Shown: in pieces, positions 1,888 through 27,631 of the stretch | Layout of the letters: every line of letters begins with the position of its first letter | How positions within the stretch are numbered: the stretch's first letter is position 1 | Origin: a virus | Strand: one strand, 5' to 3' | Length of the DNA stretch: 29,097 nucleotides | Virus record (IMG/VR): IMGVR_UViG_3300020472_000121 | Span: 1 to 29,097 of that record | Translations under genes and position numbers: made by a program | Notes under the pieces: generated by a model | Told to the model about the DNA's origin: nothing | The model's database searches: none | Seen by the model: the letters and a program-made list of their open reading frames with translations, nothing else

Positions 1888-4800
1888 ATGTCAGAGAAAA
1901 GAGTAAGTCTTACTAACGTATTAGAAAGTCAGTTTCCCGATTATATAAAATCGGAGTATCCTTTAGTCATTGATTTTATTAAACAATATTATCAATCTCA
2001 AGAGTCTCAATCAGCTCCGATTGATTTATTGAATAATATTGATCAATATATTAAATTAGACGAAAATACAAATACTACATATTCTGTTGTACTTGGTAGT
2101 GATATATCATTTAATGATAATATAATTACTATTGATATGCGTGAATCTCCAACAGGTACGATTGGATTTCCCGATTCCTATGGATTGTTAAAGATTGATG
2201 ATGAAATTATTACATATACTAGTAAGACAGATACTGCTTTTGAGGGGTGTGTAAGAGGATTTTGTGGAATTACTTCATATAAAGATCCAACTAAATCAGA
2301 TACTCTAGTTTTTAATAGTACAGCGATAGCAGAACATACAGGTAGTGTTTATGCAAGCAATAATTCACTTACTTCAATTGGATCTACTATTCAAAACTTA
2401 AGTTCCTTATTCCTTAAGGAATTTTTGAGAAAAATAAAGTTTCAAGTTTTACCAGGATTTGAAGAAAGAAAATTAACTGATAATTTAAATCAAAATACCT
2501 TTATAAAGCAAGCAAAGGATTTTTATTCAACAAAAGGAACTGATCAAGCATTTGAGATACTCTTTAGAGGTTTATATGATTCTGATGTAAAAATTGTAAA
2601 ACCTCAAGATTTTCTTCTTACACCATCAAATGCTCAGTATCAAATTACTAAGGATTTGGTTGTTGAGCCTATAGAAGGTAACCCAGTAGACTTAATTAAT
2701 TCTACTATTTTTCAAAAAACAACAAGTGGTGAAGATCAAGGATATTCACCTATAGCTTCAGTTGAAGAAGTATACAGTGGTGTTGGTCAAACTTATTATA
2801 GATTAAGTCTTGATGGTGGTTATAATAAAGATATTAGAGTTGATGGTTCAATATACGGTAAATTTACTGTTCAACCTACAACAAAGGCAATTGGAAGTGT
2901 TGCTGTAGGTTCAACATATATTACTGTTGATTCTACAATAGGTTTCCCTGAATCAGGTGACCTTTATGTTTCTTATGGATCAACTGTAGGTATAGTTTCT
3001 TATACTGAAAAATCAGATAACCAATTCTTTGGTGTTGAAGGACTTGTTGGTGTAGTAACTGATACTTATAGTGTTGGAATAGCCACTTATGCATTTGGTA
3101 CATCTTCAGTTGATGGTTCGGATATAAAAGTAAGAATTGGTTCTGTATTATCTGATTTTGAGTATGAAAGTACATCATTTGATTATTCAGTAGGTGATAT
3201 TGCAAAAATAAAGACTTTAGGTATATCCGATACTTCAGATAAAGCTGAAAATTGGTTTTATAATGTAGCACCTGTTTATAAGGTTGATAAATTAACCCTA
3301 ATTGACACTGCAGAACCAAGAACTTATCAAGTAGATTTTGATGTTGATCATTATTTTGATATTGGTGATAGTGCATCACTTATTAGTTCTTCTGGTGTAT
3401 CATTAGTATCAGCTGTTACTAAAATTAAAAATGCAAAGTCAATTATTATTCGTAGAGAAGGTTTTATTGATGTAACAGGAACATTTACCTTAAGAAAAAA
3501 TATTTTAAATGTAGATGCCACAAATTTCCCTAATGCTAATAAATTTACATCTAATGTTCAGAATCTTTATACGAAAGATAGTGATTTAATAGTTGCATCT
3601 TCATCTATTTCTTCTTATGATTCTCAAGCACTTGAAGTTACTGATAGATCAGTTACATTCTCTGGTACTTTTAATGGAAGTACATTTGAAATAACCCCTG
3701 ATAGAGATCATGGATTCTATACTGGGGATCCTGTTTATTATACTCCTGAAAAAATAGAAAGTGAGACATATAATGCAATTACTGGCCAAATAGACACTTT
3801 AACTTCTACAAATCTATTTTTACCTAAAGAGGGTCTTTATTTTATTAAAAGAATAGATTCTAATAATGTAAAATTTGCAAATAGTAGATCAGATATTCAT
3901 AATAGTATCTTTATTAACTTTACTACTGCTGTTACTGTTAATAATCAAAGAATAGAACCATATACTTTTAAAGGTAAGACATTAGTATCACAAAAACTTT
4001 ATAGAAAGTTATCTACTCCTACTAATGATGGTAATAAAGTTTCTACTCCATCTGGATTTACAGGAATTTTAATAAATGGTGTTGAGATATTAAATTATAA
4101 GTCTAATGATTTTTGTTATTATGGACAATTAGAAAATATTGATGTTATTACTACTGGTGATGAATATGATGTTATTAATCCACCAGATTTAATAATTGAG
4201 GATTCAGTTGGGACAGGAGCAACAGGTAAGGTATCATTATCAGGATCTCTTAGAGAAATTAAAATAGTTGATCCTGGATTTGACTATGTTGAAGAACCAA
4301 TAGTTTCTATTACTGGTGGTAATGGTAATGGTGCCTTGGCTTCCGTAAGTTTGAAGTCTATTGAACATTTTGCCGAATTTAATTCAGAAAATCCAGTAGA
4401 TGTTGGTATAGGAACCACTGTATCTACTTTACATTTCCCAACTGCTCATAAATTTAGGAATATTGAGAAAGTAACCTATAATCCACAAGCACAAAAAGCA
4501 ATTTCTGGATTAAGTACAAATTCAGTATATTATGCTCGTGTAGTAGATACGCAAACTGTTAAATTACATTATAATGAAGCAGATGCTCTTGCAGGAATTG
4601 GTACAGTAACATTATTGACTTTAGGGGAAGGTACTCAAAGAATATCTTCTTATAATCCTAAAAATATTATTGAATCTATTAATGTAGTTAATGGTGGTCA
4701 AAATTATCAAAATAAAGAGAAAATTGCAAATCCAACAGGTATAAGCACATTCTTAAACTCTGTTACTATTACAAATCATGATTATGCTTCAGGAGAAGTT

Positions 4801-7800
4801 ATAAAATATGTTTCTATTGGTTCCTCTGTTGGGGGATTGTCTAGTGGTAGTGAATACTATGTAACTAAAGTGGATGATAGCAACTTTAAACTATCACAAG
4901 TTGGTGTAGGAACTGATAATAAAGATTTTTATTATAGAACTAATCAGTATGTTGATATAACTTCTGTTGGTGTAGGAACTCACAAATTCAATTATCCTGA
5001 TATAACTGTAAATATAGCAGGAAAAACAGGTGAATCTTTATCATCTTATCAAGCTCAAGCATACCCAATATTTAAGGGAGGGATTACCTCTGTTCAGGTA
5101 ACTTCTAATGGTTCTGAATATGGGTCATCCGAAGTCTTAAACTTTAATAGACAACCTGTTATTAGTCTTTCTAGGGGTGGTGGAGCACAATTAAAACCAA
5201 TTATAAGTCAAGGTAAGATAGTTCAAGTTATAGTCCTTGCTACTGGTAGGGGATATAAAGGTTTACCAAATATTAATATAAATGGTATAGGAGAAGGTGC
5301 ATTTTTAACCCCAATTTTAAATAATGGGGAGATTGAATCAATAAAAATAATTGAACCTGGAAATGGTTATATAGAATCTGATACAACTGTTACAGTAGAA
5401 GCAACTGGTTCTGGAGCTATTTTTGAATCCAGAATACAAAGTTGGAGAGTTAATCTTTTCCATAAGAATGGTGGATCAGAAGGATTAGCAAATATTCCAC
5501 TTGATGACGGATATATTACAAATCCATTAAATCCAAAATCAGGTTTACAATACTCTCATATCTACACACCTAGAAAATTAAGAGAAAGTGTATTTGCAGT
5601 TGATCAGATTGGAAGAAAATTATATGGAGAAACTGATCTAAGAAAAGAAAATGGTCAAGAAGTTACATCGGTTAGTCATTCCCCTGTAATTGGATGGGCT
5701 TATGATGGCAATCCAATATATGGACCTTATGGTTACAGTTCAATACAAGGTGGTGTTGTAAATCAGATGAAATCTGGATATTCGATTTCATTAAAGGATA
5801 ATAGACCATCAACAGATATATTCCCTAATGGATTCTTTATAGAAGACTATAATTACACTAAAGTAAATGATGAAACAGTATTAGATGAGAACAATGGTAG
5901 GTTCTGTGTGACCCCAGAATACCCAAATGGTACATATGCCTATTTCACTACAATTGACCCCAATGTAGTCGATTCTGCGGGGGTTTTTGCTGGATATAGA
6001 AGACCTGTATTCCCCTATATCATAGGAGATAAATTTAACTCTATTATTGATACTTTTAATTATGATGTAAATTCAATTCAAAACAGTTATGATTTAGTAT
6101 CTAACAAATATTATAGAAATACCGCACCTTATAATCTTATAGAGAAAACTCTTAATTATCAATATATTGATATTCCTGATAATTTAAGTCAATCAGTTAA
6201 GATAAAAGCAACAACTCCAGGAAATATTCAATCAGTAGGAATAGAAACTGGTGGTAGAGATTATCAAATTGCAGATCGGATTGTTTTAGATGATTCTGAA
6301 ACTAAAGGTTATGGTGGAGATATTAGTATTGTTAAGGTTTCTGGTAAAGATGTAAGCAATATTAGTGTAGCTACTACTAGTGTTTCTAGTATGGAGATTT
6401 ATAATTCTAATGATTCTGGTCATTATCACTTAATATCGGAGTCTGCTCATCCATTTAAGAAAAATGATACTATTACAATATCGGGATTATCGACAGCTGG
6501 ATTGAAATTAGATGGTTCATATACTGTCGGATTAACTGTAAATACATTATCTTTAGTTGGATTAGGAACAACTTCTGCTGGTATTGGAACTGATGGTGTT
6601 ACTGGGATAGTTACTTACGTTAATGTTGGTGGTGATTTAAGAAATACTATTTCAAATGATCTTTTACAAATAGAGGAAGAGATTGTTAAGGTATTAAATG
6701 TAGATAGAGAGCAATCTAGACTTAGAATTTTACGTTCTTTTAATAATGTAGGTACAGAACATACAGCAGGATCTATTTTTACAGAGCTTCCTAGAGAATT
6801 TAATATAAAATCTAATAAAAATATAAAGGAAATAGTAAAAAGGAATAAAGAATTCTACTTTAATCCTTTAGATTCTGTAGCTCTTGGTTCTACTTCTGGT
6901 GTTGGTATAGGAACTACTATTACTTTCTCTAATCCAGGAGCAGGTGTAACACAATTATTTGTTCCTACTAAAACAATTTACATTAAAGATAATAATTTAC
7001 AAACAGGTGATTTAGTAACGTACTTTACAAATACTGGAACACCTCTAAAAGTTTCTAATGGTCCAACTACCTTTGACTTAACAAATCAACAACAGTTGTT
7101 TGTGGCTAAAGTAGGTAATGATTTAATCGGATTATCTACAGTTCGTGTTGGAGTAGGTACTACTGGAACATTTGTAGGTATAGCCAGTACTCAAAGAAGT
7201 CAATCAACATTAATGTTTGCTGGATTGGGAACGGGTACTTACCATAGCCTTAAAACTAATTATGATGCAATAACTGGAAAAGTATCAAGAAATCTTGTTA
7301 CAGTATCTACTTCAAGCACTCATGGATTAATTACTAATGATCTTGTTGATATTGATGTTAATCCTTCAATAGGATCCACTTATAAAGTTGTTTATAATGA
7401 TTTAAATAGACGAACTGTTGTAAATCCAAGAGATTTTGCTGACGCTGATATTGATGTTAATGCAGATTCTATTGAAATATTGAATCATGGGTATACGACT
7501 GGTCAAAAGGTAATTCACACTGCTGCAACGCCAGCAGGAGGTCTTATAGAAGGTGGAATGTACTATGTTGTGAAGGTGGGAGATAATAGTATTAAATTAG
7601 CAACAACAGAATATAATGCTACATTAGAAGATCCTATTGTAGTTAATATTACAGCAACAGCAACAGGAACAATTTCTCCAATCAATCCTCCATTAAAATT
7701 ATATAAAGATTCTACAATAACTTTTGATTTGTCTGATTCATCACTTTCATTTGTTAAACAATCTACTAGATATCCTGCATTTACCTTAGATTTCTTTACT

Positions 7801-10800
7801 GATGAGAACTTTACTGATGAATGGGATAAGAATACTTCTATAAAAGCGTTTGCAGTTAATAGAACAGGGGAAGTGGGTATTACTACAGATCCTGTGGCTT
7901 CTGCTCTATTGACAGTAGATAAAAATACTCCTACAAAGTTATTCTATAAATTGACACCTATTTTTGAAAGTAGTCCACCTTTAGAAAAAACTCAGGCAAT
8001 TATTGATAATGATGTTGTATCTAATAGTTTACTTGAGATTAAAGAGAGTGTTTATAATGGAGAATATAAAGTATCGGTAGGAACAACTAGTACCTTCACC
8101 TATACTATAGCAGATGTTCCTGAAAAGTCTTCATATTCATCTGTCTCTAAACTATCATACAAAACATCATCGGCCAGTGCATTTGGTCCTATTAGTGATT
8201 TACTTATTAAGAATTCAGGAAATAATTACTATACTTTCCCTACTATTTCTACAATAACATCTGAGTTTGGTACTAATGCAATATTAAGTATTGGAAGTAC
8301 AAATATTGGGCAAATTAAGAAAGGTACTATTCAAAATATTGGATTTAATTTCCCAACAGACAAAACACTACAACCAAGTGTTGGATTGCCTCAAATTATA
8401 GAAATTGATGATTTCTCTACTATTAAATCTATTGGTATTACTTCTGTTGGTAGGGGTTATACGATAGCACCATTACCCGTTATAGTTGATGGAAAAACTA
8501 ACAATGAAGTGAAAGACGTTGAATTGCATTATACACTTGGTGATACTGATGTAACTATTATTAAAAATACATTTGGAATGAGTAATCTTCCTCCAATTGT
8601 AATACCAACCCGTAATAGTAATGGTGTTGCTATTAGTACAGTTGGATTTAATAGTATTACTAAAGATGTAACACTTGGATTGGGAACAGTTTACAGTGAT
8701 GCAGCTGAGTTCCCATTTGTTCTTGGTGATAAGGTATTAATTGAAAATATTAGTGTTGGTGTTGGTTCTACTGGTATAGGATATAATTCTTCTGCATATG
8801 ATTACAAATTATTCAGTATAAAATCTATTACACCAACTATTGGTGGATTTGGTACTGTTTCATATAATATGAGTGATGAACTTACTGATATAGTAACTCC
8901 TGGTGCATTTGATCCTACTAATTCTGATGGGCAAATAATTGCACAAAAAACATTCCCATTATTTAATGTTACTTTTGATAGTAAGAATTTCTTCCCTGGA
9001 GAAACTGTTACTTCTGGAACATCTACTGGTGAGGTAGAAAGTTGGGATCAGAGAGTTGGTGTATTAAGAGTCTCCTCAAGTGATTCGTTTAATGTTGGAG
9101 TAGCAATTCAAGGACAATCTTCTAAGACAAGTGGAACACCAACTAGTGTTACTACATATGATGCTTTCTTAGAATATGATGCAACTTCTACTGTTGAGCA
9201 TGGATGGCAAACTAATTCTGGATTTATAAATGATAATCAGCAAAGAGTACAGGATAGTTTCTATTATCAGAACTTCTCATATGCATTAAAATCAAAAATT
9301 GATTTTGATACATGGAATGATGTTGTATCAAGTTTAAATCATACATTAGGATTTAAGAAATTCTCTGATTATCAGTTAGAATCATCTATAGGTCTTGATA
9401 ATCGGGAGTTGGTAGTTGGTCTTACTACTAATCAAACTGCATATGAGATTGTATCTGATTTACATAATGTCGTTGATCTAAATTGTAGATATGGTTATGC
9501 ATCTGTTAAAGAAAATTCTTTAGATATTGGTGGTCAATTAGCTTCTAATGAAGTTATATTTGATAGAGGTGAGTTAACTGATTATTTTGAATCATTTGGT
9601 AATAGAGTTCTTTCTATTGATGATTTAAGTCCTCAATTTAATAGTGTACCTAGAGCAACTAAGTTTAGTGTTGTTACATCTTTCCCTATAGCAGAATCAA
9701 GAACATTTAAGTTTATTACTTTTGTAAAGGATAGAAGATATACTGCTGAAAGACAAATGATGATCGTTGACATAGCTCATGATACTACATTTGCATATAT
9801 CAATCAGTATGGTAGGGTTGAGACTTTATCTGATATGGGAACGTTTGATTTTGTCATATCAGGATCTGAAGGTCAATTATTATTCTATCCAACTAAAACT
9901 GAAGTTAATGATTATGATATTGCAACTCTAACTTATAGATTAGATGATAATCTAAAGGGTATTGCTAGTCAGCAATTAAGTGGTGCGGTAAAGATTGATA
10001 CAAGTAGCCATAAGGTTGCTGTAGGAGTCACAGAAACGGTTGTAGGGTTTGCGAGTACATATAGGTCAGCTAAGATATTAGTAGGTGTTACTAAGGATGC
10101 TGGTGGAGATGGAACAACTATAATAGGAAATGAATTTGAGTTTGATGAACTTAATGTAATTCATGATGGTACAGATGTAACCATTGTAGAGTATCCACAA
10201 GTTTCTACAGACCAGAATCCATTTGAGACTCCAGGGTTGGGAACTTATAGGGGATATATTGCTGGTGGTCAAGTAAAAATTGATTTTGCACCTGCTGTTG
10301 GAGTTGGAACAACTTCTATTGTAAATACCGTTCAAGTTTTGATGGGTAATGATGCTTCTACTGGTATTGGAACAGAAGATTTAAGACATGCAAGGTTGCA
10401 AGGACAAACAACTAATATTGCATCTTCTGGAACACCTACCGAAAATGTTATTGCTAAATTCCCATCTCAGACATCTTCTGTAGTTGATGAGTTTGATGCT
10501 GCATATTTTGTAGTTCAAGTTACTGATAAAACTAATAATGAATATCAAATGTCTGAGGTTATAGTTGTTGATGACTATAATGAAACAATAGGTACTGGAG
10601 ATGCTTATGATAATGAGTATGGTATTGTTCGCACTGCGGCTGGATTAGGAACTATTGGTTCAAGACTTGATATAAACAATGGTGGTGTTACTTATACCGA
10701 ATTGGTATTCACACCAAATGCAAATATTGCTGCTCATGTTAATGTATACATGAATGCAATTAAATTTGATAATGGAACAAAAGATGAGATAGATTTAACT

Positions 10801-15540: not shown

Positions 15541-15566
15541 TTATAAATTTATATAATAAAACTAAT

Positions 15567-15577
15567 CTAAATAAATA
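15567..15577 (+). promoter_or_regulatory. Candidate late promoter (CTAAATAAATA) before gp8
   Basis: The 50-base gap between the giant gene and gp8 is the longest in the window and is almost pure A/T. It contains CTAAATAAATA, which includes AATAAATA, a match to the TATAAATA-like T4 late promoter and to the NATAAATA form described for T4-like cyanophages. CTAAATA ends 17 bases before the ATG at 15591, similar to the copies before gp13 and gp15. TATAAATT at 15542-15549 is a second, weaker match. No Shine-Dalgarno is seen before this start. Confidence 0.5.
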
Positions 15578-15590
15578 AAAACTTTTCACA

Positions 15591-17147
15591 ATGTCTGCTA
15601 TCATAACAGATCAAATTAGAATATTAAATGCGAAGAATTTTGTAGCAGGTATTGGTGCTACAAGTAATTCCTATTATTCTTTTATAGGTTTGCCAAACCC
15701 ATCTGATGTTCAGAGTGATTGGGATGAGTCTCCTCCTGCTCCAAAAGATAATTTTGAAGAAGAAGATTCATATTGGGATACTATGATTGCATTGAAGAAA
15801 ATCAATGCATCTGATGTTAGGCAGGTAGTGAGGAAAAGAACTTGGACTTCTGGTACAATTTATGATATGTATCGGAGTGATTATAGTAGTTCTAATAGAG
15901 CAAAAATCTCTGGAGCAACTAATTTATATTCTGCGTCTTATTATGTTTTAAATGCTGATTTTAGAGTGTATGAGTGCTTACAGAATGGAACTGATCCCGA
16001 TAATCCTAATGGAAGGCCATCTTTAGATGAACCTACTTTTACTGATTTAGAACCTCGTTCTGCAGGTAGTAGTGGTGATGGTTATATTTGGAAGTATCTT
16101 TATACAATTAAACCAGCTGATATTGTAAAATTTGAATCAACTGATTTCTTACCAGTTCCTCAAGATTGGGCAACATCTATTGATGCTTCTTCTGTTAGGA
16201 ATAATGCAGTTGATGGTTCACTTAAAATAGTAACTGTTACTAATAGGGGAACTGCAATAGGAAATACTGCTACATCATATACTAATGTTCCTATTAAAGG
16301 AAATGGTAGTGGTGGTCAATGTACTGTTGTTGTTAATAATGAGTATAAGATTGATTCTGTTACTGTAACTACTCAGGGATATGGGTATACATATGGTTCT
16401 GTAGATTTACTTGCAGGTGGAGTTCCGACAGGAACTACTATCCCTACATTTGATGTCATCATCCCACCTGAAGGTGGTCATGGTGCAGACATTTATAGAG
16501 AACTTGGTGCATTTAATGTACTATTATATTCTAGAATTGAAAATGATACTGAGAATCCTGATTTTATTACTGGAAACCAAATCGCAAGAGTTGGTGTAGT
16601 TGAGAATCCAAGAGTAACTACTAATACATTATTAACATCCGATAAAGCAAGTGCTGTACCAGCTTTAAGACTTACTGGTGTTGGTTATAGTTCTGCTAAT
16701 TTTACTGCAGATACTATCATAAGACAAACTATTGGAACAGGTAAAACTGCAGTTGGTAAAGTAATTAGTTATGATTCTAATACTGGAGTTTTAAAGTACT
16801 GGCAGGATAAATCACTTGCTGGATTTACTACTGTTGGTGCTGCAATTACAAACCCTACCTATGGGTATGAATTATTACAATTTACTAGTACTCCTTCTGG
16901 TACTGGTACTGTGACAATTGTTCCAGATTCAGGAACAAACTCGAATTTGGGTATTGATACAGTCTTTAGCGGTATTTCGACTGTAATAAATAATAGGACA
17001 TATAACCTTGGTCAATCTTTCGTGAGTGGGATTGCTGGTCCTGAGGCCAAAAAGTATTCAGGAAACATCATATATGTAGATAACCGTCCTTCTATAACTA
17101 GGTCGGTAAATCAAAAAGAAGATATTAAAATCATTTTGCAGTTCTAA
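15591..17147 (+). CDS. 8: Baseplate wedge protein gp8 (T4-like), enlarged
   Basis: This 518-residue protein has gp8 features. The N-terminus (IITDQIRILNAKNFVAGIG) is followed by YSFIGLPNPSDV and by a WDTMIALKKI segment. An ADFRVYECLQNGTDPDNPNG segment (~125-143) precedes GSSGDGYIWKYLYTI (~160-174). The C-terminal IIYVDNRPSITRSVNQKEDI resembles the end of T4 gp8 (ENRPPI...). gp8 dimers sit on the baseplate wedge outside gp6/gp7. T4 gp8 is 334 residues; the extra ~180 residues here fall mostly in ~205-275, a GxGY-type beta repeat (GNGSGGQCTVVVNN, TTQGYGYTYGS), and ~380-410, a 'GTGKTAVGKVISYDSNTGVL' module. Both are also found in neighbouring proteins. The gene follows the giant gene after a 50-base gap, and the next gene begins 6 bases after its stop. 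Confidence 0.88.
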   Translation: MSAIITDQIRILNAKNFVAGIGATSNSYYSFIGLPNPSDVQSDWDESPPAPKDNFEEEDSYWDTMIALKKINASDVRQVVRKRTWTSGTIYDMYRSDYSSSNRAKISGATNLYSASYYVLNADFRVYECLQNGTDPDNPNGRPSLDEPTFTDLEPRSAGSSGDGYIWKYLYTIKPADIVKFESTDFLPVPQDWATSIDASSVRNNAVDGSLKIVTVTNRGTAIGNTATSYTNVPIKGNGSGGQCTVVVNNEYKIDSVTVTTQGYGYTYGSVDLLAGGVPTGTTIPTFDVIIPPEGGHGADIYRELGAFNVLLYSRIENDTENPDFITGNQIARVGVVENPRVTTNTLLTSDKASAVPALRLTGVGYSSANFTADTIIRQTIGTGKTAVGKVISYDSNTGVLKYWQDKSLAGFTTVGAAITNPTYGYELLQFTSTPSGTGTVTIVPDSGTNSNLGIDTVFSGISTVINNRTYNLGQSFVSGIAGPEAKKYSGNIIYVDNRPSITRSVNQKEDIKIILQF

Positions 17148-17153
17148 AAAATC

Positions 17154-20100
17154 ATGCCACAGCAAACGAATCTAAATGTAGCTCCTTATTTTGATGATTT
17201 TGATTCAGCAAATGATTTTCATAAGGTACTGTTCAAACCTGGATATCCAGTTCAGGCTAGAGAATTAACGACATTACAATCAATATTACAAAATCAAGTT
17301 GAAAAATTTGGTCAGCATTTTTTTAAAGAAGGTGCAAAAGTAATACCTGGGAATGTTTCATATAATAAACAATATTATGCTGTTCAATTAAGTAGCACAT
17401 ACCAAGGGGTTCCTATATCTGCGTATATTGATCAGTTAGTTGGATTAAAAATTACAGGTGCAAGATCTGGTGTTACTGCAGTTGTTGATAAGATATTATT
17501 AGCAGAAAATTCAGAAAGAGGATATTTAACATTATATGTAAATTATCTTTCATCAAATACTCAAGATAATTCAACACAAACATTTTTAGATGGTGAGGAT
17601 ATTTATTGCGGTAAAACTATTGTATCTGGACTATTAGGAAATTCTGCAATAACTGCAGGTAGTCCAGTAGCTACTACTATTCCAAATGGATCTACTGCAA
17701 CGGGATCATCATTCTCTGTTCAAGATGGTGTATATTTTATCAGAGGTAATTTTGTAAATGTTTCATCCGAAACATTAGTTCTTGATCAATATGATACTGA
17801 TCCAAGTTATAGGGTTGGATTTTTTGTAAATGAGCAGGTAATTAATTCTGATATGGATCAAACTCTGAATGATAATTCTCAGGGTTTCAATAATTATTCT
17901 GCACCAGGTGCTGATAGATTGAAAATATCAGTAAATCTGTTTAAAAAGACTCTTTCTGATTTAAATGATGATAATTTTGTAGAATTAGCAGTAATTGAAA
18001 ATGGTATTATAAAGACAAAAGCAAAGAGTGGAAGTACTAGTGGATCTATTTTTGCAAAAGATTTAAATGATTCATTAGCAAAAAGAACATATGAAACATT
18101 TGGTGATTATCTAGTAAGGGCATTTGATATAACAGTATTAGAATCATTAAATGATAATCAAGGAAATAATGGTGTATTTAATGCTGGTCAATCAACTCCT
18201 GGTGGAGTAGCAGCATCTGATAATGATATGCTTTATAAGGTTGGTCCAGGTAAATCATATGTTAAAGGATATCCTGTACAGACTTTAGCATCGACATTTT
18301 TAGATTCACCTAAAACAAGAACTACAAAAACATTAAAACAACAATCATTAACTTATAATACTGGATCTACATTATCTTTAAATCGTGTTTATGGGTCTGC
18401 TGAAATTGGAGTTGGTAATACTTATGTTGTTAGTTTAAGAGATACTAGAGTTGGTGCTAATGGTTATGATGTGCCAGGAAAAGAAATTGGAATGGCCAGA
18501 GTATATGATTTCAAATTAGAATCAGGATCATATAATGCATCAAATGGAAATTTAAATGAGTGGGATTTGAGTTTATTTGATGTTCAAACAACTTCTGAAA
18601 TCACTGTTAATGAACCTACAACACTATCAATTCCAACATATGTTAAAGGTGCTCAAACTGGAGCAACTGCTTTCCTTAGAGACGCAGTAACTGCTGGTGT
18701 TGCACTTACTGTGTATGAAAGACAGGGTGAATTTAATCCTAATGAGCCATTAATATTCAATGGCGAAGCAAATGGTAGAATTGCTATTGCAATTACAAAT
18801 CATACTATTTCTGATGTAAAATCAGTATATGCAACTGATAATGGTTTAGTTGGTGTTAATACCTTTAGTGCTGATATTCTACCAACAGTAAAGGCAAATA
18901 TTGGTATTGCTTCTATTACACAAGTAAAAGCAGGAATTAGTACTATAACAAGTACAAATGTATTATTTCCAAAAGCAGTAGAGGTTGGAAATCTTATTAA
19001 ATTTAGTAATTTAGCAAATTCAGATGATCCAACTTTAGCAAAAGTTATATCTGTTGGTTCAAATCTAGTTACCATTCAAGGTGTAGAAACTGTAGCAGGA
19101 ATATGTAATGGTGTTTTGCCAGCTAGTACAATAAATGTCACAGATTTGACTGTACAATCTTCAGATGTACAAACATCTAGTGATGACAAATTATTTACAT
19201 GGTTACCCAAGCATAATATAGCAACTGTTGATTTGACAGATGCATCAATTACAATAAGAAAAGTATTTACAGTTAATATAGCAGGTAATCAGATAGACGG
19301 TGGAACTATTCCTACTGCAGGAGAAAATGAAACCTTCTTACCGTTTGATGAGGAAAGATATTCATTAACAAGATCAAATGGTGCTACAGAAGTACTAACC
19401 TCTGATAAGGTTCAATTTGTATCAGGTAGTGGTGGAAGATTATTACAAATTTATAATTTAGGTGCTGCTGATACTGGTGCAACTTTAACAGCAACTTTAA
19501 CTAAAATTAAACCAAAGGCTAAAGTTAAGATAAGAAATAGAGTTCAATCTATTGTTATTAATAAGTCTAAGAATGATGGTTCTGGTATAGGAGCTACTAC
19601 TTTAAATAATGGATTAGAATATGGTAATTATCCTTTCGGTACAAGAGTTGAAGATAGTCTAATATCACTTAATACTCCAGATATTATTACTATCCATAGT
19701 ATATTTGAATCATCAGATACTCAAGATCCTTCTGCACCTAAACTTACATTATCATCTATATTGAGTGCATCTACAACAACTGAAGAGTATGTTGTAGGAG
19801 AATTATTAACAGGCCAATCTAGTGGTGCTGCTGCTATCGTTGCTGGAAAATTAACTAGTAATCAAATTTCTGTTCTTTATAAGAATGATAATGTGTTTAA
19901 AGAAGGTGAATCTATATTATCTTCTGAATCGCAATTCACTGCAACTATTACTACTTTAAATTCACCTAGTTTTGATATATCTAATAATTATTCCTTTGAT
20001 AATGGACAAGAGGCAACCATTTATAACTATGGTGCTATTGAGAAAAAAGCAGATGCAGACGCTCCAACAAAGAAATTAATTGTTTATTTTGCTAGTGGTT

Positions 20101-23100
20101 CTTATGATGCAACAGATACAGGAGATATTACTACTGTTGAATCGTATGATACTTATAATTATGGTAAAGAAATTCCAATGTTTAATGGAATGAGTAATTC
20201 TGATATTATTGATATCAGACCAAGAGTTCAAGATTATTCAGTAGCAGTAAATACAAGATCTCCATTTGAATTCTTGGGTAGAACATTCTCAACTACATCA
20301 AATTCTGCTGCAAATGTATTAGCATCTGATGAGGCTCTTTTAACTACTTTCTCTTATTATCAAGGTAGAATTGATAGAATTTTTATTAATAGAGATTCTT
20401 CTCTTCAAGTAAAATATGGAACACCTGCAGATAAACCAGATCTCCCAGAAGGTGTTAGTGATGCTTTAGAATTAGCACAGTTAACACTTCCTCCATACAT
20501 TTATGATGTAAAAGATGTTTCAGTTGAATTTTTAAAATATAAGAAATTTAAGATGAGTGATCTTAAGGATCTTGAGGATAGAGTTAAGAGTTTAGAATAT
20601 TATACAACACTATCAATGTTAGAAAATGCAACTTCTAACATGTTTATTCCTGATCAGGATGGATTTAATAGATTTAAATCAGGATTCTTTGTTGACAACT
20701 TTACATCAGTTGGAGCACAAGAAACTGCATTCACTGCTTCACTTGCTAATAGTATTGATTTGAACGAACAATCATTGCGTCCAAAGCATTATACAAATTC
20801 ATTAAGTCTTATACCTGGACCTGTGGTTAATGTTGATACTACTGCAGATGCTGCATTCTCTTTAATTGAGGGTGTTAATGTAAGAAGAACTGGCGATATT
20901 GTTAGTTTGGATTATGCAGAAGTAGAATATGTAAAACAATCATTCGGAACTAGAAGTGAAAGTGTAACTCCATTCATGATAAGTTTCTGGCAAGGAACTG
21001 TTGAAATGACTCCAGCAACAGACAACTGGGTTGATACCGTAAGATTGGAAGCTAGGGTTATTAATAATGAAGGTAATTTTGCTGCAGTACTTGCAGATGC
21101 AAGAGAAAATCTTGGATTTAGTCAGGACGGTTTTGCAGGAACCATTTGGAATTCTTGGCAAACTAACTGGCAAGGAACTAGAACAACTGAGAGACGAGTT
21201 AATAGGGGAACCACTACAAGTACACACTCTCATGATGGTGGTAGGAGTGGTAGTAGAACTTCAACTACTGTATTTGAAAATGAAAGATTAACTATTGAAT
21301 CTGGGACACAATCCAGGACAGGAACAAGACGTGCAGTTGTTGAACAGTTTGATAGAGAATCTTTAGGTGATAGGACTATAAGTAGAGATATAGTTCTATT
21401 CTTAAGGTCTAGAAATATACAGATAGTTGCTAAGAGAATTAAACCATTAACACAGATATATGCATTCTTTGATGGTAAGGATGTAAGTAAGTACGTAACT
21501 CCAAAATTATTAGAAATTCAAATGACTTCTGGTATATTCCAAGTTGGGGAATCAGTGGTTGCTACTCAAGGTGGAACAGGATTAGGTGACATATCAGCAC
21601 CTAATACAAGTGCTGGAGCGATATTTAGAGTTGCTCAACCAAAACATAAAGGTGGACCATATAATATTCCTACATCAACATTTTCAGATAACCCATATAC
21701 TTATAAGTCTATTCCATCAAGTTATTCTGCATCTTCTACACTATTGAACATAGATGTTCGTTCAATGGCAGATGAGGCTCAAGGAGATTATTATGGTTGG
21801 GTGGAATCAGGTATGGTTCTAGTTGGTCAATCTAGTGGAGCTCAGGCAAAAATCACTAATCTTAGATTGATTTCTGATACTTCTGCTACATTGATTGGAA
21901 GTTTCTTTGTTCCAAATCCAAATTCAAATACTCATCCAAGATTCGAGACTGGTAAGAAGGTATTAAATTTAACAAATGATCCAAATAATAATCCAGATAC
22001 AGCAACAACAACAGCAGAAGAAACCTTTGAATCTAGTGGTATTCTTGAAACTATTCAGGAAGATATTGTTTCTACCAGAAACGCAAGAGTTGAAACACAG
22101 GATGTTACTGATGGCAGGTCAATAGAAAGAACCATAAACACTGAAGTTATTCCAGGATCTAGAACAACAAGTACTCGTAGTTGGGGATTTAATAATAGAC
22201 CTAGACGTTGGGGTGATCCACTTGCACAAACAGTTCAGATTGAAGATCCTGAAGGTATATTCTTAACACGAGTTGATCTCTTCTTTAGAAGTAGAGATGA
22301 TATGAATATTCCTTTCATCTTCCAAATAAGAACAACAGAAAATGGAGCTCCTGTTTCTACTGTACTTCCAAATTCAGAAGTAACATTAAATCCATCAGAA
22401 ATTAATTTATCTGCAGATGGATCAGTTGCAACACCAATCCAATTCGAGTCTCCTGTATTCCTTGAAGGTGGTAATAAAGAGTATGCATTAACACTACTTT
22501 CTAGTTCAACTAAGTATGCTGTTTATATTTCTAGAGTTGGTGAAAATGACCTAATTACTGAGGCATATGTATCTCAGCAACCATATCTTGGATCATTGTT
22601 CAAATCACAGAACGCATCTATATGGGAACCAAGTCAGTGGGAAGATCTTAAGTTTACTCTTTACAGAGCAGATTTCTTAACTAGCGGAACATTTGATCTT
22701 TATAATGCAGATCTTAAGACAGGAAATAATCAGATACCATATTTAAATCCAAATGCTTTAGTTGTTAATTCTAGACAATTAAGAGTTGGATTGGGTACAA
22801 CAGTAGCAGATTCTGCACTTAAAGTTGGTAATACTGTTACTCAATTGAATAATGGTGCTACTGGTAATCTTGTTTCTACTGCTGGAATAGCAACAGGTGC
22901 TTTAAGTATAACAAGAGCAGGATTAGGATTTACTCCTGCAAGTGGACATTATCAATATGATGGTGTTAATTTAACTACTCTTAGTGGTAACGGTACTGGA
23001 GCTAAAGCAAATATCACTATAGCAAATGGAGTTGCATTAGGTGCTACATTCTCTGTAGGTGGTCATGGATATCAAGTTGGCGATGTCTTAGGTATAACCA

Positions 23101-24707
23101 GTATTGGTAATAATAATCTAGGATTGAATGCTAGATTATCTATCGCAACTATTGGAGATGTTAATGAACTTATTTTAGATAATGTTCAAGGTGACTATAA
23201 GGTTGGTGCAGCAAATACTGTAATGTTTACAAATAGTGCTGGAGTATCAACTGCATTAAACTTTAGTAATGGTGGTGATGTTCAAGTAGGTGAAGTAATA
23301 ACTGCGAGTGATGGTGTTCATATTAAAGTGAACCATAATAATCATGGTATGTATTTTAATGATAATAAGGTAAGAATATTTGGTGTTAAATCAGATATTA
23401 AACCTACAAAATTAACTGTAGAATATAAATCGGATGCTGTTGGTGCATTATCAGTAGAAGATGCATCTGCATTCTCTATATTTGAAAATGTGGGAGTTGG
23501 TACAACTAATACTGGATTCTTACAGATTGGTGATGAAGTTGTTGAATATACTGCTGTTAGTGGTAACAACATTGGTGGAAATATTACTAGATCTGTTGAT
23601 AAGGTTACTTCAATCGGTTCTAGCACTCTTATAGGTATTAGAAATTATCCTGTAGGAACACCCGTTTATAAGTATGAATTAAGTGATGTTAATCTATTGA
23701 GGATTAATAAGACTCATGATTTAGCATCAACAACTGCTACTGGAAAGGGTGAGGCTATTGGTTTTGATCATTATAATTTAGAAGTTGATATGTCTACTAC
23801 ATTTAATGATAATAATACAAGTAGGGCAGTTGGTACATCATTCCCTAATTTATATTTGAATAATACTAAATCAACTGGTGGAAATGCTATTCAGGCATCT
23901 CAGAATATTGCATATGATTTAATAAATCCTGCAATTCAAACATTATCTGTTCCTGGTACTACTATGACAGGTGAGATCAGAACAGTAACTAGTCAGAGTA
24001 TAGATGGTAATGAATTACCTTGGGTTGATAATGGATTTGAATCTATTACCTTGAATGATAATAATTGGATGAATAGTCCAAGATTAATTGCATCAAATGT
24101 TAATGCAGAGAACAAATTATCAGCATTGCCTGGTAATAAATCTACTAACTTGAAGTTGACCTTGGGAACAACAGATTCTAGATTAAGTCCACTAGTTGAT
24201 TTACAAAGATCTTCTCTTCTATTAACAACAAACCGTGTTAATAATGTAATTACTGATTTTGCAACTGATCCAAGAGTTAACGAAATAGGTACAGATCCTA
24301 CTGCTTTCCGATATGTTTCTAAGGAAGTTGAATTAATTAATCCTGCAACATCTATTAGAATTATGTTAGAGGGTCATTTAACTTCTAGCAATGATATTAG
24401 AGCATTCTATGCAATTAGTGATAAGGAAAACTTTAATCCAATATTCGTACCATTCCCTGGTTATGCTAACTTAGATCAAAATGGTCAAGTTATTACTCCA
24501 GAGAAAAATAATGGACAGTCTGATACATTTGTTGCTCCAACAAATGAAGAATCATTCAATCCAAGTGAGTTGGAATTCAATCCTTATGAATTTACTATTG
24601 ACAATCTACCGTCATTTAAATCATATAGAATTAAAATAGTTGCAACTTCTACAAGTCAAGTTTATGTTCCTCAAATTAAAGCCTTGAGAGTGATTGCATT
24701 CGCATAG
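17154..24707 (+). CDS. 2517-residue DUF4815-type virion structural protein
   Basis: The N-terminus is characteristic of the DUF4815 phage family: PYFDDFDSANDFHKVLFKPG, then YPVQARELTTLQSILQNQVE (~28-47) and FFKEGAKVIPGNVSYN. Further conserved-looking blocks are MSDLKDLEDRVKSLEYYTTL with a following RFKSGFFVDNF (~1133-1183), RIKPLTQIYAFFDGKDVSKY (~1427-1446), and RRWGDPLAQTVQIEDPEGIF (~1684-1703) with a domain up to ~1850. The end contains SFKSYRIKIVATSTSQVYVP. Two Ser/Thr/Arg-rich stretches (~1345-1400 and ~1640-1685) look like flexible linkers. The segment ~2110-2190 has an IGDEVVEY module shared with gp15. The gene fills the place of T4 gp9-gp12 and wac, so a peripheral baseplate or tail-fibre role is likely but unproven. 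No Shine-Dalgarno; it starts 6 bases after gp8. Confidence 0.85.
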   Translation: MPQQTNLNVAPYFDDFDSANDFHKVLFKPGYPVQARELTTLQSILQNQVEKFGQHFFKEGAKVIPGNVSYNKQYYAVQLSSTYQGVPISAYIDQLVGLKITGARSGVTAVVDKILLAENSERGYLTLYVNYLSSNTQDNSTQTFLDGEDIYCGKTIVSGLLGNSAITAGSPVATTIPNGSTATGSSFSVQDGVYFIRGNFVNVSSETLVLDQYDTDPSYRVGFFVNEQVINSDMDQTLNDNSQGFNNYSAPGADRLKISVNLFKKTLSDLNDDNFVELAVIENGIIKTKAKSGSTSGSIFAKDLNDSLAKRTYETFGDYLVRAFDITVLESLNDNQGNNGVFNAGQSTPGGVAASDNDMLYKVGPGKSYVKGYPVQTLASTFLDSPKTRTTKTLKQQSLTYNTGSTLSLNRVYGSAEIGVGNTYVVSLRDTRVGANGYDVPGKEIGMARVYDFKLESGSYNASNGNLNEWDLSLFDVQTTSEITVNEPTTLSIPTYVKGAQTGATAFLRDAVTAGVALTVYERQGEFNPNEPLIFNGEANGRIAIAITNHTISDVKSVYATDNGLVGVNTFSADILPTVKANIGIASITQVKAGISTITSTNVLFPKAVEVGNLIKFSNLANSDDPTLAKVISVGSNLVTIQGVETVAGICNGVLPASTINVTDLTVQSSDVQTSSDDKLFTWLPKHNIATVDLTDASITIRKVFTVNIAGNQIDGGTIPTAGENETFLPFDEERYSLTRSNGATEVLTSDKVQFVSGSGGRLLQIYNLGAADTGATLTATLTKIKPKAKVKIRNRVQSIVINKSKNDGSGIGATTLNNGLEYGNYPFGTRVEDSLISLNTPDIITIHSIFESSDTQDPSAPKLTLSSILSASTTTEEYVVGELLTGQSSGAAAIVAGKLTSNQISVLYKNDNVFKEGESILSSESQFTATITTLNSPSFDISNNYSFDNGQEATIYNYGAIEKKADADAPTKKLIVYFASGSYDATDTGDITTVESYDTYNYGKEIPMFNGMSNSDIIDIRPRVQDYSVAVNTRSPFEFLGRTFSTTSNSAANVLASDEALLTTFSYYQGRIDRIFINRDSSLQVKYGTPADKPDLPEGVSDALELAQLTLPPYIYDVKDVSVEFLKYKKFKMSDLKDLEDRVKSLEYYTTLSMLENATSNMFIPDQDGFNRFKSGFFVDNFTSVGAQETAFTASLANSIDLNEQSLRPKHYTNSLSLIPGPVVNVDTTADAAFSLIEGVNVRRTGDIVSLDYAEVEYVKQSFGTRSESVTPFMISFWQGTVEMTPATDNWVDTVRLEARVINNEGNFAAVLADARENLGFSQDGFAGTIWNSWQTNWQGTRTTERRVNRGTTTSTHSHDGGRSGSRTSTTVFENERLTIESGTQSRTGTRRAVVEQFDRESLGDRTISRDIVLFLRSRNIQIVAKRIKPLTQIYAFFDGKDVSKYVTPKLLEIQMTSGIFQVGESVVATQGGTGLGDISAPNTSAGAIFRVAQPKHKGGPYNIPTSTFSDNPYTYKSIPSSYSASSTLLNIDVRSMADEAQGDYYGWVESGMVLVGQSSGAQAKITNLRLISDTSATLIGSFFVPNPNSNTHPRFETGKKVLNLTNDPNNNPDTATTTAEETFESSGILETIQEDIVSTRNARVETQDVTDGRSIERTINTEVIPGSRTTSTRSWGFNNRPRRWGDPLAQTVQIEDPEGIFLTRVDLFFRSRDDMNIPFIFQIRTTENGAPVSTVLPNSEVTLNPSEINLSADGSVATPIQFESPVFLEGGNKEYALTLLSSSTKYAVYISRVGENDLITEAYVSQQPYLGSLFKSQNASIWEPSQWEDLKFTLYRADFLTSGTFDLYNADLKTGNNQIPYLNPNALVVNSRQLRVGLGTTVADSALKVGNTVTQLNNGATGNLVSTAGIATGALSITRAGLGFTPASGHYQYDGVNLTTLSGNGTGAKANITIANGVALGATFSVGGHGYQVGDVLGITSIGNNNLGLNARLSIATIGDVNELILDNVQGDYKVGAANTVMFTNSAGVSTALNFSNGGDVQVGEVITASDGVHIKVNHNNHGMYFNDNKVRIFGVKSDIKPTKLTVEYKSDAVGALSVEDASAFSIFENVGVGTTNTGFLQIGDEVVEYTAVSGNNIGGNITRSVDKVTSIGSSTLIGIRNYPVGTPVYKYELSDVNLLRINKTHDLASTTATGKGEAIGFDHYNLEVDMSTTFNDNNTSRAVGTSFPNLYLNNTKSTGGNAIQASQNIAYDLINPAIQTLSVPGTTMTGEIRTVTSQSIDGNELPWVDNGFESITLNDNNWMNSPRLIASNVNAENKLSALPGNKSTNLKLTLGTTDSRLSPLVDLQRSSLLLTTNRVNNVITDFATDPRVNEIGTDPTAFRYVSKEVELINPATSIRIMLEGHLTSSNDIRAFYAISDKENFNPIFVPFPGYANLDQNGQVITPEKNNGQSDTFVAPTNEESFNPSELEFNPYEFTIDNLPSFKSYRIKIVATSTSQVYVPQIKALRVIAFA

Positions 24708-24708
24708 T

Positions 24709-24933: not shown

Positions 24934-25315
24934 AAATATTACATTCGATCCGACTTCAGGAGTACCTTATGCTGCTAACCTGACAATTCAGGGTGGTGCT
25001 AATTTTGATGCAACCTTTAATGTAGTAGATACTTCAAATTCACCATATCCCTTTACGACTGCATGGTCTGCAAATTCACAGATTGCAAAAAGTGTCGCAG
25101 TTGGTGCAACTTTAGGTGCATCTGCAACCTTTACTTCAGGGATAACAACCACATCCACTACAAGTAAAATAAAAATTTCTTTAGGTTCTACTGCTACCAG
25201 AAATTTAAGTGAAGGAAGATATGTTTATAATGTTTTAGTGGGGTCTGGAACAACGATATATAGCATAGTAAATGGTAATATTATGGTTTATGCAGGTGTA
25301 TCGTCTGCACCCTAA
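24923..25315 (+). CDS. Small beta-rich virion structural protein, 130 residues
   Basis: The pattern 'LTIQGGANFDATFNVVDTSN' near residue 20, then SANSQIAKSV, a TFTSG stretch, a 'KISLGSTATRNLSEGRYVYN' segment (~84-103) and a final GNIMVYAGV strand, matches a common class of small phage proteins of 110-130 residues. These begin with 'I.QGA.F...F.V.D' and end with 'GRYVYDV...V..G.V.V'. Such proteins are found in virion structural clusters and are probably beta-sandwich adaptors; the exact attachment site is unknown. It overlaps the coiled-coil gene by 11 bases. Its stop codon is embedded in the CTAAATA motif preceding gp13. Confidence 0.8.
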   Translation: MSIKNITFDPTSGVPYAANLTIQGGANFDATFNVVDTSNSPYPFTTAWSANSQIAKSVAVGATLGASATFTSGITTTSTTSKIKISLGSTATRNLSEGRYVYNVLVGSGTTIYSIVNGNIMVYAGVSSAP

Positions 25316-25318
25316 ATA
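25310..25318 (+). promoter_or_regulatory. Candidate late promoter (CCCTAAATA) before gp13
   Basis: CCCTAAATA spans the stop codon of the preceding gene (CCC TAA ATA) and ends 20 bases before the gp13 ATG. The identical nine bases recur at 27626-27634 before gp15, and CTAAATA recurs before gp8. The motif resembles the T4 late promoter TATAAATA. Confidence 0.5.
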
Positions 25319-25322
25319 CTGT

Positions 25323-25329
25323 TAAGGAG
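25323..25329 (+). promoter_or_regulatory. Strong Shine-Dalgarno for gp13
   Basis: TAAGGAG lies 9 bases before ATG 25339. It is the best Shine-Dalgarno in the window and fixes the gp13 start. Most other genes here have weak or no such site. Confidence 0.75.
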
Positions 25330-25338
25330 TAGACGCAA

Positions 25339-26181
25339 ATGGCAAAACCCGCAAGTAGATCAGACTTAATAAACTATTGCAAGAGGCAATTGGGTGCTCC
25401 TGTGTTGGAGATCAATGTAGCCGATGAGCAAATAGATGATTTAGTAGATGACGCTCTTCAGATCTTCCATGAGCGACATTTTGATGGTGTAACGAAGGAT
25501 TATGTAAAATATAAAATAACTGAAGATGATATTAATAGAGGAAGAGGATTAACTGACCCTGAAGTTAGTGGAATAACCACAACTACAGTAACAGAAACGG
25601 TTGGTGTAACTACAGAATTTAAATTTGAAGAGAATAGTAATTATCTACCATTACCTCCAGATATTATTGGAGTAGAAAAGATTTTCCATTTTGATGGATC
25701 TGCTACATCTACCAATAATATGTTTAGTGTAAAGTATCAATTGTTCTTGAATGACATCTATTATTATGGTGCTACTCAATTGATGAATTATGCTATGGTA
25801 AGGTCTTATTTGTCTGATATTGATTTCTTATTAACAACCCAGAAACAATTTAGATTTAATCAGCGTCAAGATAGACTTTATATTGATATTGATTGGGCTG
25901 GTGTTCAAGAGGGTGATTATATGATATTTGATGTCTTTAAGGCAATAAATCCAGATGATTTTACTGGAGTATGGAATGATTCATTCTTAAAAAGATATGT
26001 GACCCAATTAGTGAAAAGACAATGGGGCCAAAACTTAATAAAATTCCAAGGAGTAAAACTTCCTGGTGGTGTTGAATTAAATGGACGGCAAATGTATGAT
26101 GATGCAGAAAAAGAATTGGAGATTATTAGAGAGCAAATGTCTAATACTTATGAATTGCCACCATTAGATTTGATAGGTTAA
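25339..26181 (+). CDS. 13: Neck protein gp13 (T4-like head completion)
   Basis: This 280-residue protein (T4 gp13: 309) has the gp13 N-terminus SRSDLINYCKRQLGAPVLEI followed by DDLVDDALQIFHERHFDG (~30-47). Further features are PLPPDIIGVEKIFHF (~106-120), FLNDIYYYGATQLMNYAMVR (~135-155), and the C-terminal region KRQWGQNLIKFQGVKLPGGV with the last residues NTYELPPLDLIG. gp13 and gp14 form the neck complex that closes the filled capsid and docks the tail. A Thr/Val-rich loop (~77-93, GITTTTVTETVGVTTEF) looks like a surface loop. It has a strong ribosome site and a candidate late promoter, and is followed 4 bases later by gp14. Confidence 0.93.
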   Translation: MAKPASRSDLINYCKRQLGAPVLEINVADEQIDDLVDDALQIFHERHFDGVTKDYVKYKITEDDINRGRGLTDPEVSGITTTTVTETVGVTTEFKFEENSNYLPLPPDIIGVEKIFHFDGSATSTNNMFSVKYQLFLNDIYYYGATQLMNYAMVRSYLSDIDFLLTTQKQFRFNQRQDRLYIDIDWAGVQEGDYMIFDVFKAINPDDFTGVWNDSFLKRYVTQLVKRQWGQNLIKFQGVKLPGGVELNGRQMYDDAEKELEIIREQMSNTYELPPLDLIG

Positions 26182-26185
26182 TATT

Positions 26186-27631
26186 ATGGCACTTAATCCG
26201 TATTTTCAGCAAGGTGCTAGATCAGAACAAAATTTAGTTCAGGATCTTATCAACGAACAGTTGAGGATGTATGGTGTCGAGGTACATTATATGCCTCGAA
26301 AATATATAAAAGAAAATACGGTAATAAGAGAAGTAGTTCAATCTAAATTTGATGATGCATATCCCCTTGAGGCATATGTTGATACTTATGATGGTTATGG
26401 AGAGAATCCAGTTCTTCTAACCAAATTTGGTATAGAAGCAACAAATGAAATAACTCTTACTATTTCTAGGGAAAGATGGGAGAATTATATCGAACCTTTA
26501 ATGGAAAATGAGGCAGATGTAAAACTAACAACTAGACCAAAAGAAGGTGATTTAGTATATTTCCCATTAGGTGATAGATTATTTGAGATTAAGTTTGTTG
26601 AGCATGAAAAGCCTTTCTATCAGTTACAAAAGAATTATGTTTATGAATTGAGATGTGAACTCTTCCGTTACGAAGACGAAGTTATCGATACAGGTGTTGA
26701 AGAAATTGATAATGAATTGGTAGGTGATAATGTTGATGGAACATCTGAAGACGGTATTCCAACAATATTAGGGCCTACACAAACCTTCACTTTGGTGGGT
26801 GCTGCATCTACTGCTGCTGCATACACTAGTGTGGTCGCCTCTGGTGGTATTAATTACTTTACCATATCAAATAGGGGTGGTGGGTATGTTACACCTCCTA
26901 CAATCGGATTATCATCAGCACCTTCTGGTGGAACAACAGGTATTGCAACTGCTGTATTAATTGCTGGTATTCAATATTGCAATTTAAATATAGGACTTAA
27001 TCAAAAGTCGGTACAAACAATAGAAATTGCAAATCCAGGTGCAGGATATACTGTTGCACCAGGTGTAGCATTTACTAGTGATAGTGGTGTTGGTGCAGCA
27101 GCAACCGCATTCATTGCCGATGGAACATTAGGTGTTACGACAGTTACAAGTGCTGGTGGTGGATTTACAAGTACACCTACAGTTACATTTGCAGGACCAA
27201 CAGGGGTTGGAACAACTGCTACAGCTGTTGCCGTTATCAATGCAGCTGGTTCTGTTACTGATGTTAGATTTACTAATACTGGTGCTGGTTATACTGCTGG
27301 TGATCTTCCATTATATGCAACATTCTCTACTCCAGCAACAGGATCTGAAGGAGATTATAGATTCAATGAAACAGTAACTGGTGCTACAAGTGGAGCAACT
27401 GGTAAGGTAAGGACATGGAATTCTGTCACAAATGTTTTAGAAGTATCGTCAATATCAGGAACATTCTCAATTGGAGAAAATATAACTGGTTCTCTGTCAG
27501 GTGCAATACATGCATTGAGAATAGTTAATACAGAACCTACTGACGATGGATTTGCGGATAATATTAACATAGAAACAGAAGCAGATAAAATATTAGACTT
27601 TAGTGAACAGAACCCATTTGGGATGCCCTAA
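26186..27631 (+). CDS. 14: Neck protein gp14 (T4-like) with a repeat-bearing insertion
   Basis: The first ~195 of 481 residues are typical gp14: NPYFQQGARSEQNLVQDLIN, YGVEVHYMPRKYIKEN, ITLTISRERWENYIEPL, and FPLGDRLFEIKFVEHEKPFY. The last ~30 residues, including ADKILDFSEQNPFGMP, also match the family C-terminus. T4 gp14 is 256 residues; the excess lies between these two parts. Residues ~205-375 are GxGY beta repeats and ~399-442 a 'TGATSGATGKVRTWNSVTNV' module. With gp13, gp14 completes the head and forms the tail-docking collar. The insertion is probably an exposed decoration on the neck; its role is unknown. The start is 4 bases after gp13; only a weak AGG precedes it. Confidence 0.93.
   Translation: MALNPYFQQGARSEQNLVQDLINEQLRMYGVEVHYMPRKYIKENTVIREVVQSKFDDAYPLEAYVDTYDGYGENPVLLTKFGIEATNEITLTISRERWENYIEPLMENEADVKLTTRPKEGDLVYFPLGDRLFEIKFVEHEKPFYQLQKNYVYELRCELFRYEDEVIDTGVEEIDNELVGDNVDGTSEDGIPTILGPTQTFTLVGAASTAAAYTSVVASGGINYFTISNRGGGYVTPPTIGLSSAPSGGTTGIATAVLIAGIQYCNLNIGLNQKSVQTIEIANPGAGYTVAPGVAFTSDSGVGAAATAFIADGTLGVTTVTSAGGGFTSTPTVTFAGPTGVGTTATAVAVINAAGSVTDVRFTNTGAGYTAGDLPLYATFSTPATGSEGDYRFNETVTGATSGATGKVRTWNSVTNVLEVSSISGTFSIGENITGSLSGAIHALRIVNTEPTDDGFADNINIETEADKILDFSEQNPFGMP
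26780..27510 (+). repeat. GxGY repeat insertion in gp14
   Basis: Four degenerate repeats of the form 'xxITNxGxGYxxxPxVxF' are visible: FTISNRGGGYVTPPTIGL, IEIANPGAGYTVAPGVAF, TTVTSAGGGFTSTPTVTF and VRFTNTGAGYTAGDLPLY. They are followed by the TGxVxxW module. The DNA is richer in G+C than the gp14 core: hand counts of lines 27121 and 27181 give 26/60 and 28/60, against 19/60 in line 26401. Gly/Ala/Thr codons explain part of this. Similar repeats occur in the giant protein and gp8. Confidence 0.8.

Follow-up and report, generated by a model that had tools for sequence, protein, structure and literature searches.

The DNA considered here is a virus record of 29,097 nucleotides (IMG/VR record IMGVR_UViG_3300020472_000121, positions 1 to 29,097; referred to below as the window), and it raises the question of why several different virion proteins should carry the same short glycine-rich beta repeat with a GxGY hallmark. 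The record covers part of the genome of a T4-like cyanophage, whose T4-like genes stand in cyanophage order: gp6, gp7 (4,550 aa), gp8, a DUF4815 protein (2,517 aa), a small fibre-assembly protein, gp13, gp14, gp15 and gp16. The original prediction, made from the letters alone, was that the baseplate, wedge and neck proteins seem to carry one family of decoration module, as though it had moved between the structural genes of this phage. We consider it reasonably probable that the repeats form an immunoglobulin-like (Ig-like) family that decorates cyanophage virion proteins, that phages gain, lose and exchange, and that likely binds the host surface weakly.

The repeat itself was established by profile searches of seventeen named phages and a set of metagenomic fragments. 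A first profile, built from gp14 copies only and refined iteratively on 13 gp14 genes, yielded 96 stretches with scores of 8 bits or more when 12 cyanophage gene blocks and the window were searched; reversed and locally shuffled copies of the same proteins gave 0.18 per control set (a seed confined to the four gp14 copies of the window was too weak and recovered just one gp7 copy). The iterated profile found 272 copies scoring at least 9 bits among 1,160 open reading frames (ORFs) from the seventeen phages and the window, and none in six control sets consisting of reversed and five times locally shuffled sequences. When whole genomes were searched, all 17 cyanophages had GxGY matches and the one E. 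coli T4-like phage had none. The units are short and Gly-rich and some copies are degenerate, and they might therefore be non-homologous low-complexity beta segments, rich in Gly, Thr and Val, that are alike by composition only. This convergence is extremely improbable, as controls of equal composition gave no copies, the spacing between copies is fixed at 37–46 aa, orthology is position-specific, and the same fold is predicted in gp14 and gp7; Gly composition is thus excluded as the explanation, and the claim of a shared repeat stands.

Each repeat is about 40 aa long and has three beta strands, a (I.V.nxGxGY), b (P.V.f) and c (GxGAxAxaxv), and two consecutive repeats likely make up one Ig-like beta-sandwich of ~80–90 residues with the predicted strand order c-a-b-c-a-b. 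The AlphaFold2 (AF2) prediction for the window's gp14 has high confidence over residues 200–450, with a confidence score (pLDDT) of ~90 for the array, and a regular series of strands at residues 211–217, 221–229, 239–242, 253–259, 274–283 and 294–297 in the first domain and 305–311, 314–322, 332–335, 346–351, 357–364 and 376–380 in the second. Residues 1040–1200 of gp7 are predicted to have the same strand series and spacing (AF2 pLDDT ~95 over model residues 57–134), so that an identical three-strand unit appears in both predictions. A c strand also precedes the first copy in eight of eight gp8 proteins and in most of the gp14 copies that start an array of the type found in the window (site I, below). 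Copy numbers fit repeat pairs as the unit: among 80 metagenomic gp14 loci there are four copies in 64, three in 11 (where one further copy probably falls below threshold), six in 4 and two in 1, and the arrays at a second position in gp14 (site II) have two.

The sole credible match of the repeat profile in the PDB was to the tailspike Dpo31/Dpo36 (8ck1, 28lx, 28mg) at residues 443–506 (E 2.9e-4), in which two copies score 9.4 and 15.7 bits against 1.9 for the reversed segment, and an independent HMM gives 18.7 bits. In Dpo31, residues 434–536 form D3*, an Ig-like domain set into the beta-helix of the spike, for which DALI finds a distant likeness to sugar-binding domains of the Ig-like type (PMC13317679), and the GxGY repeat pair lies within this inserted domain. 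In the VIA fold comparison of the gp7 unit, nearly all rows were Ig-like or FnIII, with a low top Z of 4.6. Several points weigh against this assignment. All VIA scores were below Z 5 and Dpo31 itself was absent among the fold matches, the gp7 model is confident over only ~78 residues, a c strand stands ahead of only 37% of gp7 first copies, and some gp7 copies are solitary or in threes, so that the reading of a copy as one half of a c-a-b-c-a-b domain does not hold throughout. With one solved relative and weak fold matches behind it, an Ig-like fold is likely for the GxGY domain, though it is not proven for this phage.

The family is spread over more of the virion than was first supposed. Copies are found in gp7 of the window and of every phage whose gp7 was read, in gp14 of all but the S-PM2-type phages, in gp8 of eight phages including the window, and in the DUF4815 protein of a few; the gp5-like hub/lysozyme proteins (phrog_1922) and tail fibres carry them too, as does the tail sheath protein gp18 in S-PM2 (L095 33276–35504) and two metagenomic phages (L196 2084–4249 and L202 2132–4315). 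The suggestion that baseplate, wedge and neck proteins share a single family of decoration module was therefore borne out and can be extended to hub-like proteins, fibres and sheath. The relationship is also apparent in existing libraries, where the PHROG family of gp14, phrog_460, matches gp7 residues 4265–4377, and gp14 residues 212–450 match baseplate and fibre families. In S-MbCM7, a fibre or structural protein of 3,044 aa (L097 16347–25481) is annotated 'neck protein gp14', presumably because the repeats are shared, and the true gp14 lies at 29208–30332. Separately, an ORF of 960 aa (L184 2–2881) matches gp14 across 638 residues and would be an unusually large neck protein.

How the repeat came to be in so many genes is a question that trees can answer only in part, as copies of 40 aa give weak trees and our tests of exchange rest on label counts and best hits. 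The best match was in the same protein of another phage for 223 of the 272 copies and in another protein of the same phage for two, and 38 of 44 best hits within gp14 were to a copy of equal rank. The tree of copies shows 90 changes of protein label (158 after shuffling) and 206 of phage label (199 after shuffling). Since copies match and cluster by protein and not by phage, which was the outcome that the original prediction had itself set against its idea of a module moving between the structural genes of this phage, the spread over genes must be old. Copying of modules between structural genes within one phage genome would account for the presence of one family in many genes of each phage, for a few high-scoring pairs from the same genome such as the 838-aa fibre and gp7 of S-B43, and for an excess of gp14–gp7 matches within phages (p 0.06). 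It is nevertheless improbable, since, of the best matches that cross from one protein to another, 13 stay within one phage where 12.3 would be expected, the gp8–gp7 and gp14–gp8 comparisons give p 0.5–0.8, and the tree groups copies by protein and not by phage; as a recent process it is largely refuted. The family probably spread through copying between genes in deep time.

The movement that we do observe is the gain and loss of whole domains at fixed loops and lateral transfer between the gp14 genes of different phages. Metagenomic gp14 genes L064, L072, L077 and L086 have an extra two-repeat domain of ~88 aa, which in L086 is 97–98% identical to the other three in protein and 94–96% in DNA compared with 82–84% DNA identity for the cores. 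A further gene, L166, has a Bellamy-like core (66–67% aa and 46–54% third-position identity) and an extra domain with 90–91% aa and 80–81% third-position identity (Fisher p 3e-8 and 3e-5). Across L064, L086 and L166, third positions are 80–85% identical in the extra domain and 46–65% in the cores (Fisher p 3e-8, 3e-5 and 4e-4). Judged from these sequences, the ~88-aa domain shared by three gp14 lineages is the product of lateral transfer at the same site. More divergent versions are found in P-SSM2/S-T4-like gp14. Each of the closest matches examined was a gp14 gene and the gp7 and gp18 matches were distant, so a donor other than gp14 was rejected for this domain. For the site II array of S-RIM8/ACG-2014b, non-gp14 copies have similar scores whether they come from the same genome or from a foreign one, and no donor was named. 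Apparent insertions of 74–80 aa at a number of gp7 loci turned out to be additional high-scoring segment pairs of the repeat, with lengths equal.

The architecture of gp14 shows how such domains are accommodated. Before the tail joins, T4 gp14 is ordered as far as residue 177, and in the virion the final 79 residues are bound to gp15 (PMC12270204). Alignment indicates that cyanophage gp14 retains the T4-like core and C-terminal tail, and between these there is a small barrel (module B) in which the array is nested. In the window (all features on the + strand) the core occupies residues 1–177 (26186..26716; PF11649 E 4.6e-29, PDB 9mkb and 9lu4 E ~1e-24, VIA Z 11), followed by the first barrel strand at residues 196–203 (26771–26794), the Ig-like array at residues 205–385 (26798..27340), the remainder of the barrel on the other side of the array at residues 386–449 (27341..27532; module B profile 67 bits at 393–442), and the conserved tail with F-x-E-x-N-P-F-G (27533..27628), which aligns with T4-like gp14. 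The array has four GxGY repeats at 26849–26935, 27011–27097, 27140–27214 and 27254–27301 (21, 23.5, 20.5 and 10.5 bits), predicted to form two six-stranded c-a-b-c-a-b domains. Residues 196..449 align weakly to the domain III barrel of eIF2-gamma (Z 5.5), and in a PDB fold search with the whole of gp14 only T4 gp14 was significant.

In the window's clade the array separates barrel strands 1 and 2 (site I), and in the group of S-RIM8, ACG-2014b, S-MbCM7 and ACG-2014j it separates strands 2 and 3 (site II). Without it, gp14 is 290–307 aa long in every cyanophage tested at either site, and the naturally array-free protein of S-PM2 is 292 aa long. Array-free gp14 is common to wild-type S-PM2, S-RIM44, Syn1 and Sf-CH11, and the Syn1, Sf-CH11 and S-PM2 proteins are 76–82% identical to the array-bearing S-RIM32 protein in the part that they share. 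As the array-free group falls inside the site II clade of the core tree, the root of which is poorly supported, array loss or replacement is the likelier direction. Within gp14 the median identity is 57% for the array and 77% for the core. The gp14 of S-SSM7 (L006 36704–38989) is 762 aa long and has a concanavalin A/LamG-like match (E 7.6e-6, slightly under Pfam's cutoff) between GxGY copies.

In the mechanism that we propose, the domains would decorate surface loops of gp7 and gp8 in the baseplate wedge, of gp14 in the neck, of the gp5-like hub and of the fibres, and sometimes of the DUF4815 protein and the sheath. Projecting from neck, wedge and fibres, they may bind cell-surface polysaccharide weakly and multivalently and so aid reversible adsorption. 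Nested insertion in the barrel would spare the gp14 core and the gp15-binding tail as assembly interfaces, so that domains could be added or swapped without harm. Weak host-surface binding appears to us the best fit because the gp14 array is fast-evolving, dispensable, varies by countable domains, lies near the neck–tail joint in T4 terms and is accompanied by LamG in S-SSM7, and because Ig-like relatives have been linked to sugar binding. Two further considerations tell on the other side, as the surface exposure of the domains is deduced from T4 topology and carbohydrate binding is itself an inference, for D3* as well.

The main rival appears to be structural reinforcement, in which the domains would be spacers or cement that stabilise a large baseplate and neck by touching neighbouring virion proteins, without any host binding. 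The gp7 and gp14 copies hold position across distant genera as a structural part might, they are on assembly proteins and not on fibres alone, and the gp7 copies at residues 748–816 are well conserved. We regard reinforcement as possible but rather unlikely, given that S-PM2, Syn1 and Sf-CH11 have a working gp14 that lacks the array, and that the array is the fast-evolving part of the protein and varies in domain number. A more specific idea, which we think doubtful, is that the gp14 domains can be exchanged to set adsorption or host range at a point distant from the tail tip, in place of the collar/whisker system of T4; the gp13 of these phages lacks part of the region that binds fibritin in T4.

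Returning to the window with weak host-surface binding as the preferred function, most of the positions first listed for the repeat hold, and all those given here are on the + strand. In gp7 a repeat pair at residues 748–816 (4117..4365; copies at 4135–4221, 15 bits, and 4255–4335, 18 bits) occurs at the same place in S-SM2, Bellamy, P-TIM68 and S-B43, and a single copy that had been overlooked was found by the profile at residues 928–946 (4669..4725; 12 bits, with orthologs scoring in S-SM2, P-TIM68 and S-B43). The array at residues 1040–1200 (5005..5487) has a predicted six-stranded unit at 5173–5406, with one copy at 5332–5418 (17 bits) and another at 5227–5307 that is weak in the window and scores 24, 26 and 22 bits in Bellamy, P-TIM68 and S-T4. 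Degenerate copies lie at 6223..6357 (orthologs in Bellamy, P-TIM68 and S-T4 with 14, 12 and 15 bits) and 8422..8517 (6.5 bits; Bellamy 18 and S-B43 14 bits). The C-terminal domain of gp7 (14728..14976; c-a-b-c-a-b, copies at 14773–14853 and 14890–14970 with 18 bits each) reads GAIATATV...ISNAGVGY...VANAGSDY...PPIILIDPP and is the part matched by phrog_460. Two other listed sites are without ortholog support and have nothing beyond the motif itself, one at 12049–12177 (5 bits) and one at 13855–13947 (missed by the profile).

The gp8 domain (16212..16460) consists of a degenerate first copy and a copy at 16350–16394 (10 bits), and is held in residues 203–486, a stretch only ~82 residues long in T4-type gp8; alignment with the solved Klebsiella phage gp8 (9f4a) covers only residues 3–202 and 487–518. 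The possible copy in the DUF4815 protein (22890..23110) is of a GYxxGD type and below threshold in the window, and is likely to be a degenerate copy because the orthologous Bellamy stretch, 'NGGSGYQVGDVLGI', scores 9 bits.

The closest DNA to the window is that of the single-cell virus AG-345-O18 (~89%), followed by Synechococcus phage S-SM2, in which the counterpart of the giant gene is annotated as gp7. No tandem DNA repeats were found in the window. Within gp7 there is also a YHYH domain at 5662–5970 (PF14240, E 1.4e-23), and gp13 (25339–26178) is without a counterpart of T4-type gp13 residues 171–190 and 196–217, stretches which overlap the fibritin-binding region (190–239 in T4).

GxGY repeats are not the only small modules shared by these proteins (+ strand). 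Module B is common to gp14, gp7 (8998..9135, 31 bits), the DUF4815 protein (18639–18758 and 19794–19934, 20 and 46 bits) and gp8 (16734–16799, weak at 7 bits). Module C ('IGxExmxV...RGxxGT') occurs at the gp15 C-terminus (28455..28568, 58 bits), three times in gp7 (2182–2262, 6658–6774 and 11368–11472; 21, 15 and 32 bits) and in the DUF4815 protein (23514–23603, 23 bits). The profile for module B gave no control matches at 8 bits or more. In gp15 module C is ~55–65 aa long, precedes the conserved C-terminal GDDFGF motif and is found only in the window's clade and S-SSM7, being missing by alignment from the gp15 of S-T4, P-SSM2, Sf-CH8, S-CAM7, ACG-2014f and T4-type phages. With modules B and C shared among structural proteins in this way, the cyanophage virion seems to draw on a shared set of small beta modules.

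Small Ig-like domains were reportedly found by Fraser and colleagues in 2006 to be scattered over the capsid, tail and fibre proteins of tailed phages and traded between phages, and are said to have been proposed as weak binders of cell-surface carbohydrate. The GxGY family is similar in being small, on several virion proteins and traded between phages. Those earlier families are recognised by existing Ig-like models, whereas the GxGY family has no Pfam match, contains an internal duplication marked by GxGY, and has been inserted into neck and wedge proteins at their loops. The repeats match no Pfam family when members are scanned singly, the whole proteins have no Pfam match there, NCBIfam gave none, and our literature searches turned up no paper describing the repeat in cyanophages; the GxGY domain is most likely an Ig-like family missing from the protein-family libraries searched. 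The closest likeness is D3* of the marine podovirus Carin-1, with two GxGY copies 42 residues apart in an Ig-like fold inserted within another domain, but this is one domain on a depolymerase spike, whereas cyanophages, with contractile tails, have many copies on the baseplate, neck, hub and fibres. T4 gp14 (256 aa; PDB 9mkb, 9lu4–9lu7) resembles the window's gp14 in its N-terminal core and C-terminal tail and is without barrel and array. Domain shuffling, including Ig-like domains, has been described in receptor-binding and baseplate proteins on the basis of ECOD (Smug et al. 2023, PMC10684548), and the parts of that paper that we read do not mention the GxGY repeat.

Marine T4-like cyanophages have very large and little-annotated baseplate and fibre proteins, and an Ig-like family would account for part of this bulk. 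The family can be searched by profile and also explains mis-annotations such as that of the large S-MbCM7 fibre. Finally, gp14 offers a tractable system, with natural relatives whose number of Ig-like domains at one exact loop ranges from zero to three, and the role of Ig-like domains in phages may therefore be directly testable.

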